Assembly: GCA_024742835.1 (NCBI GenBank)
Contig: JANSXS010000022.1
Coordinates: 1 to 47,927, forward strand
Direction: 5' to 3'
Length of the DNA stretch: 47,927 bases
Source: Paracoccaceae bacterium
GTDB taxonomy: Bacteria > Pseudomonadota > Alphaproteobacteria > Rhodobacterales > Rhodobacteraceae
Shown: piece after piece, positions 11,075 to 35,615 of the stretch
Position numbering within the stretch: position 1 is the stretch's first letter
How the letters are laid out: every line of letters begins with the position of its first letter
Made by a program: the position numbers and the translations under genes
Notes under the pieces: generated by a model
The model's input: only the letters and a program-made list of their open reading frames with translations
What the model was told of the DNA's origin: nothing
Databases searched by the model: none

Positions 11075-13075
11075 ATGGCAGTTTTACTGGGCGTGGATAC
11101 CGGCGGGACGTATACCGATGCCGTTCTGATCCGTGACGACCAAGAGGTTATCGCAAGCGCCAAGGCGCTGACCACAAGACAGGATCTGGCCATTGGCATC
11201 GGCGAGGCGGTGCGTGCGGTGCTTGATGCCAGCGGGGTCGCGCCGGGGGCGGTCGGGCTTGCATCACTGTCGACCACGCTTGCCACCAATGCGCTGGTCG
11301 AGGGGCAGGGCGGGCGTGTCGGGCTGGTCTATGTCGGCTTTCGCGAAACGGATCTGGAGAGTCACGGCCTGCAAGAGGCGCTTGGCCCCGATCCCGCGCT
11401 GGTGCTGGCCGGTGGCCATGGCCACGCGGGAACAGAGGCCGCACCACTGGACGAAGCCGCCCTTTCGGCATGGTTAGAGAGTATCGAGCCTGCCTCGGCC
11501 TATGCGGTTGCCGCACAATTCGCGACCCGCAACCCGGCGCATGAGCTGCGCGCAGCGCAGATCATTCGCGCGGCCACGGGGCGGCCTGTCTCGATGTCGC
11601 ATGAGCTGTCGGCAAGGCTTAACGGCCCGAAACGGGCGTTGACCGCGCTTTTGAATGCGCGGCTCATTGGCATGATCGCGGCGCTGATCGCGCGTGCCCA
11701 ACACACGCTTGTCGATTTGGGCGTGACCGCGCCTTTGATGGTGGTGCGCGGCGATGGTGCGCTGATTTCCGCGGAACAGGCCTGTGCCCGCCCTATCGAG
11801 ACGATCCTGAGCGGCCCGGCGGCAAGCATCGTTGGAGCAAGATGGCTGACCGGGGCCGAAACCGCGCTGGTATCCGATATCGGTGGGACAACCACGGATG
11901 TCGCCGTCTTGCGCGATGGCAAGCCGATGATCGACCCGGCGGGCGCGCGCGTCGGGTCATGGCGCACCATGGTCGAGGCCGTTGCGATGCGCACCACCGG
12001 GCTGGGTGGTGACAGCGAGGTTCACGTGCAAGAGACCGGTTTGCAGGGCGGTGTCACGCTTGGCCCGCGCCGTGTGATCCCGATCAGTCTTCTGGCGCAT
12101 GAGATGGGGGGCTTGGTTCATAACGCGCTTGATGAGCAGTTGCGACGTGAAACGCCCAACGAGCAGGACGCGGTATTCGTCAGGGCTGTTGCAGGTGTGG
12201 ATGCCAGCGGTCTGAGCACGAAAGAAGCGGATCTTCTGGCGCGGGTCGCAGAAGACGTGCAACCCTTGTCGCGAATACTCAAGGCGCGCTTGGACCGTGC
12301 CGGGTTACGGCGTCTGGTTGCGCGTGGGCTGGTTCAGTTGGCCGGACCGACGCCCTCTGATGCGGCGCATGTGCTGGGGAGTCTGACCGTGTGGGATGCA
12401 CAGGCCGCAACAAAGGCGATGCGCATTCTGGGGCGGCGGCGCATCGGCACCGGCGGGCGGCTTTGTTCCGATCCGCATGGCATGGCGCAGAAGATTGTCG
12501 ATCAACTGACCCGGCAAACGGGCCTTGCCCTGCTTGAAACGGCCTTTGCCGAGGAAGACCCCGGTTTCCATCTGCCGGCAGCGGAGCTTGCCGCGCATGA
12601 GATAATGCAGGCCGGGCTGACACCTCATCAAGGGTTGCTGCGCATCGACACGGGGCTGAACGTACCCGTGGTGGGCCTTGGCGCGTCGGCGGCCGGCTAT
12701 TACCCGGCGGTCGGTGAAAAGTTGCGATGCCGGATGATCCTGCCCGCGCATGGCGGGGTGGCCAATGCGATCGGTGCCGTTGTCGGCCGAATTTCGGTGC
12801 GCAAGAGTGGCACGATCAGTTGCCCGTCAGAAGGGCTTTACCGGGTGCATGGGCCGCATGGGCCGCAGGATTTCAGCGATCCGCAAACGGGTCTAGCCGA
12901 ATTGCGCGACCTGCTCGAACAAAGCGCAACAGAGGCCGCGATCAAGGCCGGTGCGCTGGATCTTCACATCGCTGTGCAAGAGGACAGCAAGACGGTCACG
13001 GTCGAAGCCCGAGAGGTGTTTATCGAGGCGCATGTGACAGTCGAGGTGAGCGGACGGCCGCGCATTGCGGAATAG
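11075..13075 (+). CDS. Hydantoinase/oxoprolinase subunit A family protein
   Basis: A 666-residue member of the HyuA / 5-oxoprolinase N-terminal family. These are ASKHA-fold, ATP-dependent enzymes that open hydantoin, 5-oxoproline or related amide rings. The N-terminus carries the phosphate-loop-like GVDTGGTYTDAVL, then STTLATNALVEGQGG. A second nucleotide-binding block, DIGGTTTDVAVL, lies in the middle. HyuA normally works with a HyuB subunit, usually adjacent, but none is present on either side. The substrate is unknown. GGAAAGG lies upstream of the ATG. It converges on the glutathione peroxidase gene across two stacked palindromes. Confidence 0.85.
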   Translation: MAVLLGVDTGGTYTDAVLIRDDQEVIASAKALTTRQDLAIGIGEAVRAVLDASGVAPGAVGLASLSTTLATNALVEGQGGRVGLVYVGFRETDLESHGLQEALGPDPALVLAGGHGHAGTEAAPLDEAALSAWLESIEPASAYAVAAQFATRNPAHELRAAQIIRAATGRPVSMSHELSARLNGPKRALTALLNARLIGMIAALIARAQHTLVDLGVTAPLMVVRGDGALISAEQACARPIETILSGPAASIVGARWLTGAETALVSDIGGTTTDVAVLRDGKPMIDPAGARVGSWRTMVEAVAMRTTGLGGDSEVHVQETGLQGGVTLGPRRVIPISLLAHEMGGLVHNALDEQLRRETPNEQDAVFVRAVAGVDASGLSTKEADLLARVAEDVQPLSRILKARLDRAGLRRLVARGLVQLAGPTPSDAAHVLGSLTVWDAQAATKAMRILGRRRIGTGGRLCSDPHGMAQKIVDQLTRQTGLALLETAFAEEDPGFHLPAAELAAHEIMQAGLTPHQGLLRIDTGLNVPVVGLGASAAGYYPAVGEKLRCRMILPAHGGVANAIGAVVGRISVRKSGTISCPSEGLYRVHGPHGPQDFSDPQTGLAELRDLLEQSATEAAIKAGALDLHIAVQEDSKTVTVEAREVFIEAHVTVEVSGRPRIAE

Positions 13076-13094
13076 CCGATGCGCGGGCGCTCAA

Positions 13095-13140
13095 TAAAGC
13101 GTTTCGCGAAAAACCTGAATCACGGATTTTCGCGAAACGC
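13095..13140. repeat. Palindromic element, copy A
   Basis: The outer sequence TAAAGCGTTTCGCG begins an inverted repeat: GCGTTTCGCGAAAA (13099-13112) pairs perfectly with TTTTCGCGAAACGC (13127-13140). The 14-base loop contains CCTGAATCA. It lies 20 bases past the hyuA-type stop. It shares the arm and loop words with copies B, C and D and could terminate transcription in either direction. Confidence 0.75.
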
Positions 13141-13163
13141 AGTACTCCGTTTAGTCGTTGCAC

Positions 13164-13210
13164 GCGTTCCGCCTTTCGCTGATGTCTCAGGTTAAAGGCG
13201 GAACGCTTTA
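13164..13210. repeat. Palindromic element, copy B
   Basis: A perfect 13-bp inverted repeat GCGTTCCGCCTTT (13164-13176) / AAAGGCGGAACGC (13194-13206) with a 17-base loop holding TGATGTCTCAGG, then TTTA. It lies immediately downstream of the glutathione peroxidase stop (minus strand). It aligns without gaps to copy D at 34 of 43 positions by hand count. Confidence 0.75.
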
Positions 13211-13214
13211 GCGT

Positions 13215-13733
13215 TTACTTGAGCAGCTTTTCGATATCTCCGGTCATGCGGCCCGACATCGGCCGAACCGGAGATCCGTAGGTGCCCGCCACCCTGCCAT
13301 CCGGGCCGAGCAGAACCTTGTTGAAGTTCCAGGAAGGCTCGAACCCGGCCTCGGACGCAAGAGAACGAAAGAACGGGTGCGCTGTCTTTCCGCGAATATT
13401 CGTGATGCCGGTCATCGGCATGTCGATGCCATATTGCAACTCGCAGAATTCCTTTACCTCTTCATTGCTCGACAATTCCTGTTTGAAATCGTCCGAGGGC
13501 ACGGCCAGCACGACAAGCCCGCGATCGCGGTACGTGTCATATAGCTCTTGCAGAGCAGAGAACTGTTTCGTGTAGCCGCAGCGCGAGGCGGTATTGACCA
13601 CAAGAACCGGTTGACCGCGCCAATCAGACAGCTTGATCGTGCCACCGTCGATATTGTCAAACGGCGCGTCAAGATCCAGCGCCAGGGCAGGAAGCGCAAG
13701 AACACAGGCAATGATAGTGGCGAGAAAACGCAT
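13215..13733 (-). CDS. Exported glutathione peroxidase-like protein
   Basis: This 172-residue thiol peroxidase reduces hydroperoxides, probably in the periplasm. Residues 1-19 form a signal peptide (MRFLATIIACVLALPALALD). The peroxidatic cysteine is Cys52 in NTASRCGYT, with the Gln of FKQEL and the Trp and Asn of WNFNK completing the family tetrad. The usual FPCNQF block reads VPSDDFKQE, so the second cysteine of that block is absent; the reductant may differ from classical glutathione. The start is set by GGAGGTCCAG directly before the ATG at 13733. It is divergent from the EamA gene. Confidence 0.88.
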   Translation of the reverse strand: MRFLATIIACVLALPALALDLDAPFDNIDGGTIKLSDWRGQPVLVVNTASRCGYTKQFSALQELYDTYRDRGLVVLAVPSDDFKQELSSNEEVKEFCELQYGIDMPMTGITNIRGKTAHPFFRSLASEAGFEPSWNFNKVLLGPDGRVAGTYGSPVRPMSGRMTGDIEKLLK

Positions 13734-13865
13734 CTGGACCTCCATGGGGTTGTTCTTGGTACGTAGCAGGTGGCGAAATGGATCAAGGTTTGCGGCCATC
13801 GCATGACGGGTTTTCTTTGCCATCGCGCGGTGTTTGCGCCACTGCACGACCATGGAGAAACGCAT

Positions 13866-21030: not shown

Positions 21031-22428
21031 ATGAACCTGATCACGAACCATATGCCAACCGCAGAGCTGCAAAGACTGGACGCGGCGCATCACCTGCATC
21101 CCTTCAGCCACGGACATGCGTTGAATGCCAAGGGCGCGCGCGTGATCACCCGTGCAAAGGGGGTGACGCTGACCGACAGCGACGGCAACGAGTATCTTGA
21201 CGGCATGGCCGGGCTTTGGTGCGTGAATATCGGCTATGGTCGCGAGGAACTTGCCGAGGCGGCGGCGCGTCAGATGAAGGAACTGCCCTATTACAATACG
21301 TTCTTCCAGACGACCCACGCCCCCGTGATCGCGCTGGCAGAGCGGATCGCCAACCTGACGCCATACGACCTGAACCACATCTTTTTCGCCAGTTCCGGGT
21401 CAGAGGCGAACGACACCAACATCCGCCTTGTCCGCACCTATTGGGAGGCAAAGGGCAAACCGTCCAAGCGCGCGATCATCAGCCGCAAGAACGCCTATCA
21501 CGGCTCCTCCATGGGCAGCGCCAGCCTTGGGGGTATGGCGGCGATGCACGCGCAAGGCGGGATGCCCATCCCCGACATCCATCATATCGACCAGCCCTAT
21601 TGGTACGGCGAGGGCGGCGATACCGACCCCGAGGAATTCGGCAAGGTGCGGGCGCGTCAACTGGAGCAAAAGATCCTTGAGCTGGGCGCGGACAATGTCG
21701 CCGCCTTTATAGGGGAGCCGATACAGGGTGCGGGCGGCGTGATCATTCCGCCCGCCAGCTACTGGCCCGAGATTCAGCGCATCTGCGACGAACATGACAT
21801 CCTGCTGATCGCCGACGAGGTGATCTGCGGTTTCGGACGCACTGGACAATGGTTCGGATCGCAAACGCTGGACATCCGCCCGCAGATCATGACCGTCGCC
21901 AAGGGGCTAAGCTCTGGCTACCAGCCGATTGGCGGTTCGATCGTCAATGACGAGGTGGCCGATGTGCTGAACTCTGTAGAATTCAGTCACGGTTACACCT
22001 ATTCGGGCCACCCGGTGGCCTGTGCCGTGGCGCTGGAAAACCTGCGCATCCTGGACGAAGAGGGGATCGTGACCCGCGCGGGTGCGGAAACCGCGCCTTA
22101 CCTGGCCGAGAAATGGGCGACGCTGGCCGACCATCCGCTGGTGGGCGAGGCCGTGACATGCGGCATGTTGGCGTCGCTTGCACTGACCCCGCACAAGGCC
22201 AGCCGTGCGAAATTCGCCGCCGAGAAGGGCACTGCCGGGCTGATCTGTCGTGACCGGTGCTTTGCCAACAACCTTGTAATGCGCCATGTTGGCGACCGGA
22301 TGGTGGTGTCTCCGCCGTTGATCATCACGAAGGCCGAAATCGACACGCTGGTCGAACGGGCGTGGACGGCGTTTGACGAGACACAGGCGCGGCTGGAGCA
22401 CGAGGGGTTGATGAAGGCGGCGGGTTGA
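21031..22428 (+). CDS. spuC: Putrescine-type class III aminotransferase
   Basis: A 465-residue PLP enzyme of fold type I, class III. It resembles SpuC-type aminotransferases that move the amino group of putrescine or another omega-amine to pyruvate. Visible motifs are SSGSEANDTNIRLVR, the Asp of IADEVICGFGRTG that holds the pyridine nitrogen, and the PLP lysine in TVAKGLSSGYQPIGG (about Lys291). Context with PotFGHI, the PuuB-like oxidase and the GntR regulator supports putrescine breakdown. Taurine or beta-alanine transamination cannot be excluded from sequence. It converges on doeA across a palindromic element. Confidence 0.82.
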   Translation: MNLITNHMPTAELQRLDAAHHLHPFSHGHALNAKGARVITRAKGVTLTDSDGNEYLDGMAGLWCVNIGYGREELAEAAARQMKELPYYNTFFQTTHAPVIALAERIANLTPYDLNHIFFASSGSEANDTNIRLVRTYWEAKGKPSKRAIISRKNAYHGSSMGSASLGGMAAMHAQGGMPIPDIHHIDQPYWYGEGGDTDPEEFGKVRARQLEQKILELGADNVAAFIGEPIQGAGGVIIPPASYWPEIQRICDEHDILLIADEVICGFGRTGQWFGSQTLDIRPQIMTVAKGLSSGYQPIGGSIVNDEVADVLNSVEFSHGYTYSGHPVACAVALENLRILDEEGIVTRAGAETAPYLAEKWATLADHPLVGEAVTCGMLASLALTPHKASRAKFAAEKGTAGLICRDRCFANNLVMRHVGDRMVVSPPLIITKAEIDTLVERAWTAFDETQARLEHEGLMKAAG

Positions 22429-22430
22429 GG

Positions 22431-22471
22431 CGTTGCACCTTTTGCCTGTGACATCGGCAAAAGGCGCAACG
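22431..22471. repeat. Palindromic element, copy D
   Basis: CGTTGCACCTTTTGCC (22431-22446) and GGCAAAAGGCGCAACG (22456-22471) pair over 16 positions with one A/C mismatch and a 9-base loop TGTGACATC. On the minus strand it aligns gap-free to copy B, including swapped but complementary stem bases. It lies between convergent spuC and doeA and is probably a bidirectional terminator. Confidence 0.75.
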
Positions 22472-34345: not shown

Positions 34346-35536
34346 ATGGCGACTTATACTCTCACCCATGTCGAAAAGAAGCCTCTCAGCTTTTCTGTGC
34401 CGGTCCTTGCGGCGGCGGGCGCTTTCGCGGGCCTCTTTATTGGCACCGCGCAGGGATCGGGCCCGATTGGCTTTGTCGGCGGCGCGGTGATGCTTGCATT
34501 GCTGGGTCTTGTTTGTCTGACGGCGCTTTCCAACGACAAGGAAAAGATCGCGCGCTGGCTGATCCTGTTGGGAATGGCCGCCGCGGGCTATGCCTTTGGT
34601 GCGTTGCCGGGGCTTGTCGTGGGGGCCTTGTTCGGCTGGTTCTTCGGCTGGTTTATCTACTGGATCGGTGAAGGGCGGTACCGGGCCAACCTTGTGCCCT
34701 ATCTCACGCCCGGTCAGGTTTTGTGGCACTATTCGTTCCGGGTGATCTGCGGCATGATCTTTTTCTTCCTGATCACGCCCATCGTGGTGGTGATGCCGCT
34801 CAGCTTTAACGCCGAGAACTTTTTCACCTTTACCCCGGAAATGCTGCGCTTTGATCCGGCGGGCTACAGCCTCAAGCATTACAGGGACTTCTTCAACAGC
34901 CCCGACTGGCAGCAGGCCTTGTGGAACTCTGTCACCATCGCCCCGGTCGCCACGCTTTTGTCGGTGACATTCGGAACGCTGGCGGCGATCGGTCTTTCGT
35001 CGGAACACGTGCCGTTCAAGCGCGCGATCATGGCAATCCTGATCTCGCCCATGATTGTGCCTCTGATCATCTCGGCGGCGGGGATGTATTTCTTTTACTC
35101 GCGTCTTGGGCTGCAAGGCACCTATTGGGGGGTTGTTCTGGCTCACGCTGCGCTTGGCATTCCGTTCGTCATCATCACCGTGACCGCGACGCTGGTGGGC
35201 TTTGACCGCTCGCTGACCCGTGCGGCGGCCAATATGGGCGCGAACCCGGTCACAACCTTCTTCCGGGTCCAGATGCCACTGATCCTGCCAGGTGTGATTT
35301 CAGGCGGGCTGTTCGCATTCATCACGTCCTTCGACGAGGTGGTGGTGGTGCTGTTTGTCGGCTCGGCAGGGCAAAAGACGCTGCCATGGCAGATGTTCAT
35401 CGGTCTGCGGGAACAGATATCCCCGACGATCCTTGCAGTCGCGACGATCCTTGTTTCGCTGTCGATCCTGCTTTTGGCTACTGTCGAGGTTCTGCGCCGC
35501 CGCTCGGAACGGTTGCGCGGTATGTCGCCGGGCTAA
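34346..35536 (+). CDS. ABC transporter permease with N-terminal membrane extension
   Basis: A 396-residue PotC-type permease. An N-terminal block of about 110 residues with three or four extra hydrophobic helices, including LVVGALFGWFFGWFIYWIGEG, precedes the standard six-helix core that begins near VICGMIFFFLITPIVVVMP. The EAA loop RAAANMGANPVTTFFRVQMP is present. It follows the other permease after 6 bases. Its TAA stop is the first three bases of the inverted repeat at 35534. Confidence 0.87.
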   Translation: MATYTLTHVEKKPLSFSVPVLAAAGAFAGLFIGTAQGSGPIGFVGGAVMLALLGLVCLTALSNDKEKIARWLILLGMAAAGYAFGALPGLVVGALFGWFFGWFIYWIGEGRYRANLVPYLTPGQVLWHYSFRVICGMIFFFLITPIVVVMPLSFNAENFFTFTPEMLRFDPAGYSLKHYRDFFNSPDWQQALWNSVTIAPVATLLSVTFGTLAAIGLSSEHVPFKRAIMAILISPMIVPLIISAAGMYFFYSRLGLQGTYWGVVLAHAALGIPFVIITVTATLVGFDRSLTRAAANMGANPVTTFFRVQMPLILPGVISGGLFAFITSFDEVVVVLFVGSAGQKTLPWQMFIGLREQISPTILAVATILVSLSILLLATVEVLRRRSERLRGMSPG

Positions 35537-35615
35537 AGCGTTTCGCGAAGCGCCCTGAATACGCAAAAGGCCGGGCAAACAGCCCGGCCTTTTTCATGTC
35601 AGACGAAACGCTTTA
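35534..35615. repeat. Palindromic element, copy C, enclosing a terminator
   Basis: The perfect 12-bp inverted repeat TAAAGCGTTTCG (35534-35545) / CGAAACGCTTTA (35604-35615) frames the whole gap between two convergent genes. Its outer TAA on each strand is the stop codon of the permease (+) and of ilvE (-). A CCCTGAAT word follows the left arm, as in copy A. Confidence 0.8.
35565..35593. terminator. Bidirectional terminator between permease and ilvE
   Basis: AAAAGGCCGGGC (35565-35576) and GCCCGGCCTTTT (35582-35593) pair over 12 bp with a 5-base loop. A or T runs lie on both sides, so it works in both directions. It sits inside repeat copy C. Confidence 0.9.

Follow-up and report, generated by a model that had tools for sequence, protein, structure and literature searches.

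The window, the whole stretch of 47,927 bp that was analysed, contains a double-hairpin repeat of 116 bp between the facing 3' ends of a hydantoinase/oxoprolinase gene and a glutathione peroxidase gene. The two palindromes that the initial annotation reported at this locus, A (13099-13140) and B (13164-13206), are present in the sequence. The features of the locus are as follows.

11075..13075, + strand: hydantoinase/oxoprolinase gene, 3' end toward the element (Pfam PF05378, PF01968)
13095..13210, + strand: complete 116-bp double-hairpin element (A + B), very probably a MITE (genome copies; 105-copy alignment)
13095..13096, no strand: left TA, target duplication (empty-site comparison in relatives; flank statistics)
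13097..13124, + strand: left terminal inverted repeat, resembling IS630 left ends (GCGTTTC...AACCTGAATC)
13099..13140, + strand: hairpin I (palindrome A), a 14-bp stem followed by inner pairs (folding, covariation)
13117..13121, + strand: GAATC, a GANTC (CcrM) site in the hairpin I loop, inside the left terminal repeat (sequence)
13141..13163, + strand: 23-bp linker, more variable than the arms (105-copy alignment)
13164..13206, + strand: hairpin II (palindrome B), a 13-bp stem followed by inner pairs (folding, covariation)
13181..13208, - strand: right terminal inverted repeat, resembling IS630 right ends (TTTAACCTGAGRCAT)
13209..13210, no strand: right TA, target duplication (empty-site comparison; flank statistics)
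13215..13865, - strand: glutathione peroxidase gene, 3' end toward the element after a 4-bp gap (Pfam PF00255)

The element runs in the order TA, hairpin I, 23-bp linker, hairpin II and TA, with TAAAGCG and CGCTTTA as its outer bounds. Each arm consists of a terminal repeat followed by an inverted copy of that repeat, and the consensus ends are TAAAGCGTTTCGCGAAAAACCTGAATCACAG (left) and TAAAGCGTTCCGCCTTTAACCTGAGACATCAG (right). Rather than being duplicate hairpins, A and B form the arms of a single unit and are joined by a conserved linker. At gathering cut-offs, Rfam identified two tRNAs in the window and nothing else.

We identified many further copies in the source genome (3.03 Mb, 76 contigs), as the initial annotation had expected. 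The pattern GCGTTNCGCN{10,40}GCGNAACGC occurred at 52 places, versus 1 for a backwards control, and BLAST of positions 13090-13215 gave alignments of 100 bases or more to 37 other places with 81-98% identity and to one more with 77%, besides shorter matches. A de-duplicated profile search gave 42 near-full copies (extending from model position 3 or lower to 114 or higher, at more than 50 bits), no two of which share a flank.

We investigated the target site in the flanks of 168 distinct near-full copies, 43 of them from the source genome and two of them sharing one 40-bp left flank. C or T precedes the left TA in 154 of the 168 copies and, reading inwards, a pyrimidine precedes the right TA in 151; with Y before TA on both flanks, the target is YTAR. 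IS630-type elements are described as inserting at TA and duplicating it (PMC2170065), and IS630 itself is reported to favour CTAG (Tenzen and Ohtsubo 1991, cited therein). Empty sites were searched for in two syntenic pairs of relatives of 88-89% identity. The copy at G074:C21:83003-83118 reads CTTACC-TG-AAGCG...CGCTT-TA-TTCCG, and the empty site in G052 reads CTTACC-TA-TGCCG; the empty partner has one TA, and the filled site has TG on its left, which is taken as a later change of TA, and TA on its right. In the second pair (G006:C73:214308-214396 versus G012) the right end of the copy is decayed, and the left flank is TAA where the empty site has TGA. In a third case, the genes adjoin directly in G071 where the source genome has the copy at C72:19261-19376; the match of this junction is only approximate, since the gene ends differ. 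One empty site alone (G074/G052) thus gives both junctions cleanly, and two are weaker. Other copies in the syntenic pairs are common to both genomes and therefore old, and the rest face unrelated or unaligned sequence. Opposite another element of G074 (C21:78931-79045), G052 carries a different stretch (L251-L252) with TATAGCGTTTAGACTTTT at one border and AAAAGTCGAAACGCTTTA at the other; this may be a further MITE that has related ends and occupies the corresponding position.

Transposases of the IS630 family are present in the genus, with DDE_3 (PF13358) identified at E<=1e-5 in 36 of 84 Roseovarius genomes. The source genome had no IS630 transposase match at 1e-5, and one 13.9-bit IS630 scrap that carries a stop; a helper is therefore assumed to lie elsewhere or to have been lost. 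We examined 30 Roseovarius IS630 loci with matrices built from the two ends of the MITE. Both IS ends were matched in eight loci (L279, L283, L292, L305, L280, L281, L290 and L299), 1,054-1,159 bp apart, in elements of about 1.06 kb. The matches were cleanly end-specific (left to left and right to right) in four of the 30, with right/left scores of 25.5/24.0 bits in L279, 31.2/22.3 in L283, 20.2/4.6 in L292 and 24.7/4.9 in L305. The left matrix scored equally or higher at the right end in L280, L281 and L299, and so did the right matrix at the left end in L290, so that end-specificity is not general. One end was matched in L277, L278, L296 and L301, and the remaining 18 loci had no match at the IS ends, weak or unrelated matches aside.

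The left IS ends are TAGAGCGTTTCTATGAAAACCTGAATCG in L283 and TAAAGCGTCCTGCCGAAAACCTGAATCG in L279, and the right ends are TAAAGCGTTTCGGTTTTAACCTGCG and TAAAGCATCCGACTTTTAACCTGAGGCATATC, respectively. GANTC occurs in nine of the ten IS630 left ends compared, two of which are identical. L299 is located in R. litoreus, which also carries the 116-bp element. By eye, the L283-type ends contain no MITE-like hairpin, and the inner inverted copies appear to be peculiar to the MITE. The proteins of L283 and L279 belong to NCBIfam NF033545 (IS630 transposase; 133 and 135 bits), with the DDE half scoring above the NCBIfam cut-off and the HTH half falling short of it at 49-51 bits. In both loci the transposase is divided between two frames that overlap, as though frameshifting produced it.

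We consider it about 90% probable that A and B together are one non-autonomous MITE of 116 bp with ends of the IS630/Tc1-mariner type, likely mobilised in trans by IS630 transposases of other Roseovarius. The properties of a MITE are present: a short, protein-free sequence in many copies with fixed ends (42 near-full copies of a 116-bp unit), a TA target duplication (one clean empty site and the flank statistics) and terminal repeats in common with an IS630 element (both ends in 8/30 loci). We infer mobilisation by an IS630-family transposase acting in trans, which would bind the outer terminal repeats, excise the element and insert it at TA.

A REP, BIME or REPIN family mobilised by RAYT, a Y1 HUH transposase, would share several of these traits, since two inverted palindromes with a short linker, in high copy number, resemble a REPIN, and REPs are likewise extragenic. 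Such families need a RAYT, however, and PF01797 had no match at E<=1 in the source genome, while 10 of 14 control genomes were positive. The TA duplication and the terminal repeats in common with IS630 also speak against RAYT, and we regard this origin as extremely improbable. Rhodobacter, Roseobacter and Paracoccus are not mentioned in the accessible text of two REP surveys (PMC3733652, PMC12306157).

We next consider the hairpins of the MITE. Palindromes A, B and D and the outer arms of C fold better than shuffled sequences (z -4.6 to -7.5). In an alignment of 105 copies (the 107 distinct copies of 116 bp minus L192:672-787 and L151:2967-3082), 31 pairs hold in 94.9% of cells, with approximately 5% unpaired. 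Changes on both sides were identified in 12 of the 31 pairs, affecting 48 cells against 6.9 in shuffled data, and none of 500 shuffles reached as many. When the partners were slid, pairing fell to 31-48%, yet 9-14 pairs and 12-36 cells still appeared to be two-sided. The initial annotation had claimed that stem bases change on both arms and that the structure is under selection; the covariation is borne out across the 105 copies, but uncompensated changes occur as well, in the unpaired cells. The differences between A and B that it cited compare a left with a right arm, not one copy with another. Either selection or a copying process keeps the arms matched, and the data fit both.

We investigated gene context in the 155 of 168 copies that have 600 bp on both sides (13 were left out). 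Genes were called with a custom codon-usage script; because it failed to call the peroxidase gene next to the element in the window, the counts carry some error. By these calls, 68 of the 155 lie between convergent genes, 69 between tandem and 14 between divergent genes, with 1 inside a gene and 3 lacking a gene call. The preference for gene 3' ends that had been predicted is thus present. The stop codon falls exactly in the terminal TAA of the element at 67 of the 205 gene 3' ends that face a copy, and the element forms the stop of a neighbour in 58 copies (49 on one side and 9 on both; 97 on neither). YTAR control sites from the same loci, outside the elements, comprised 374 coding and 529 intergenic sites, 61 in one stop codon, 8 in two and 29 unassigned. 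Stop-forming copies (58/155) exceeded the non-coding controls (69/598; odds ratio 4.6, P 1.4e-12), and divergent copies were scarce (14/151 versus 173/598; odds ratio 0.25, P 1.0e-7).

This excess over the control led us to consider an active targeting of stop codons, which we rejected because survival suffices: stop codons make up 69 of the 145 control sites that lie at stops or in convergent gaps, if only those are harmless. Survival at harmless sites can explain both the convergent excess and the divergent scarcity. As the inserted ends begin TA-A on both strands, an insertion into a TAA or TAG stop codon, at its TA, would leave a TAA stop and the protein unchanged; copies would persist in convergent gaps and at stop codons, and those in promoters and reading frames would be eliminated. 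Regeneration of a stop on either strand offers a testable reason for the crowding of repeats at gene 3' ends.

Palindromes had been reported at all three convergent protein-gene junctions of the window that have room, which is correct for A/B, C and D; by eye, there is none in the 43-bp junction at 1220-1262. The features at D and C are as follows.

about 22428..22471, - strand: D, decayed solo arm II (nhmmer 25.2 bits, model positions 71-114)
35534..35615, + strand: C, ends resembling those of the MITE on both sides (9.3 bits against the full profile)
35565..35593, no strand: terminator-type hairpin inside C (by eye; a like hairpin in the 22 relatives aligned)

The initial annotation had taken C and D as related copies. 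For D this is right, as a decayed solo arm II, and D sits at the TGA stop (22426-22428) of an aminotransferase gene. At C, the outer arms are MITE-like and hold the stops of both convergent genes (35534-35536 and 35613-35615), and they enclose a hairpin of terminator type. Full-length alignments of this gene pair from 22 relatives show, by eye, such a hairpin between the two stops in every relative; G071, the closest at this site (84%), has the GGCCGGGC/GCCCGGCC core without the MITE-like ends. Because the 22 relatives also have such a hairpin between these stops, we rejected C as a single MITE with a terminator for its cargo, and the arrangement cannot come from one insertion. We also rejected C as a separate repeat family: among the matches listed, its whole sequence matches itself alone, and the others are to the inner hairpin or to pieces of the ends.

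Could selection instead maintain the elements where convergent genes end, as signals for transcription termination or 3' processing? The 68/155 convergent copies, the strong hairpins and the covarying arms agree with such a role, and SPRITE repeats of pneumococcus have been suggested to be co-opted in this way (PMC3049150). However, 69/155 copies are tandem, presence within the genus is patchy, and all 22 aligned relatives have an ordinary terminator-type hairpin at site C. Scanning 13000-13300 for terminators gave no site and no T-run terminator, although this is not strong evidence, since the same scan missed the inner hairpin of C, where the T-run lies in the stem. We therefore consider selection for termination or processing quite unlikely. 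Of the options offered by the initial annotation (terminators, a REP-like transposable family or processing signals), it is the transposable one that stands in kind, but not as REP/RAYT, no Y1 transposase being found in the source genome and the ends, target and duplication being of the IS630/Tc1-mariner kind, and the terminator scan was empty. Hairpins may covary and lie between convergent gene ends without being terminators. Once transcribed, the 3'-end hairpins of the MITE may have a putative role in shielding mRNA.

The GANTC site in the loop of hairpin I recalls the CIR repeats of Caulobacter and Brucella. As described in a 2007 review by Delihas (PMC2229807), CIR (CcrM-associated intergenic repeats; Chen and Shapiro 2003) are intergenic and abundant repeats of about 110 bp, with two long inverted-repeat arms, a linker, GANTC at one loop and TA termini. 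The 116-bp element is of the same length class and agrees in its two arms and linker, loop GANTC, TA termini, intergenic position and abundance. The review lists no terminal inverted repeats for CIR and states that their mobility needs more information, whereas for the Roseovarius element the ends, the target and a helper family have been identified. Compared by description, the element may be akin to CIR, which would give a concrete origin (IS630-type ends and a TA target) to a double-hairpin repeat type whose mobility is listed as open.

The original CIR idea, that such an element is maintained because its GANTC serves as a regulatory or chromosome signal linked to CcrM, appears very improbable here. 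Of the 112 copies of 116 bp, identical sequences included, 72 retain GANTC, and the site also occurs in 9/10 IS630 left ends. Against such a role, 40 of the 112 copies have lost the site, its columns 24-26 are more variable than columns 19-23 and 27, and the site belongs to a transposon end anyway. We put forward as a speculation, itself rather unlikely, that CIR, an orphan class since 2003, would be IS630-type MITEs, the CcrM site would be the GANTC of the left end, CcrM methylation would gate transposition to after passage of the replication fork, and the TAA-reading ends would provide a safe landing in stop codons. Dam gates the transposition of IS10 and IS50 to after replication-fork passage.

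Other known repeats were compared in the same way. RUP of Streptococcus pneumoniae is described as a 107-bp repeat with ends like those of IS630-Spn1 and TA targets, and has been proposed to be an IS630-mobilised MITE (PMC2229807); RUP and IS elements of pneumococcus are reportedly over-represented between convergent genes (PMC3049150). It resembles the Roseovarius element in size, TA targets, IS-like ends and convergent excess, but belongs to an unrelated host and forms one stem-loop by pairing of its 5' and 3' ends, as the repeats other than CIR are said to do (PMC2229807), whereas the Roseovarius element has a hairpin at each end. By analogy, RUP is the closest known relative in kind. Correia/NEMIS of Neisseria (107-bp and 155-bp MITEs) likewise have TA termini and RNA stem-loops, but form one stem-loop and are given no IS end match in the review's account (PMC2229807). 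A literature search, with most subscription journals outside it, found no report of a Roseovarius miniature inverted-repeat element.

The element was matched in 45 of 146 genomes, all 45 in Roseovarius (1 of 63 genera), and in about half of the 84 genomes of the genus examined, in a patchy distribution. Carrier loci identical to named records belong to Roseovarius, including Pelagivirga sediminicola. A pattern scan of genome contigs gave at least 103 stretches; among the matches listed, 72 were Roseovarius by record title, and others came from Celeribacter, Lentibacter, Brevirhabdus, Loktanella, Roseicyclus, one Verrucomicrobia MAG and one Actinomyces MAG. By eye, a similar arrangement with other stems is seen in the matches from Lentibacter, which has no profile score, from Celeribacter (50.1 bits) and from a Roseicyclus MAG (31.4 bits). 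The Actinomyces match does not resemble the element. Roseovarius-type elements occur on contigs L151 and L220, binned as a Verrucomicrobia MAG and an Alphaproteobacteria MAG from one GSL sample series; the L151 contig is probably mis-binned. A plasmid search matched two Roseovarius records, and a phage search gave no match.

The covariance-model search proposed by the initial annotation, run under stricter filters, identified further copies in the family (13 of 295 genomes and 12 of 294 genera); among 337 genomes of the class, under the same kind of filters, it matched the source genome and none of the other 336. Of 16 loci from the family search, 10 form both arms, only arm I remains in L359 and L368, and L370, L364, L367 and L369 fold end to end. 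TA stands at both ends in 12 of the 16, and across these other genera the length of 105-117 bp is kept while stem sequences differ widely. These related elements form a natural series on the role of the second, inner copy of the transposon end.

Partial forms were additionally identified. Besides full copies, the source genome contains solo hairpins. Arm I stands alone in L007, L068 and L077 and arm II in L003 and L069, and arm I is collapsed in L044 and L076. Perfect 24-bp palindromes, TAAAGCGTTTCGCGAAACGCTTTA, at G022:C1:1499465-1499488 and G011:C7:41495-41518 consist of the element ends with nothing between. The solo hairpins, collapsed-arm copies and 24-bp palindromes look like a series of deletion products; loss of an arm by slippage across the palindromes would yield the 50-bp solo hairpins and the 24-bp palindromes. 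Finally, L143 and L207 differ after a stop codon that they share: L207 has a single element there, and L143 (5184-5475) has a decayed left end of the element, additional sequence and a second, full copy.
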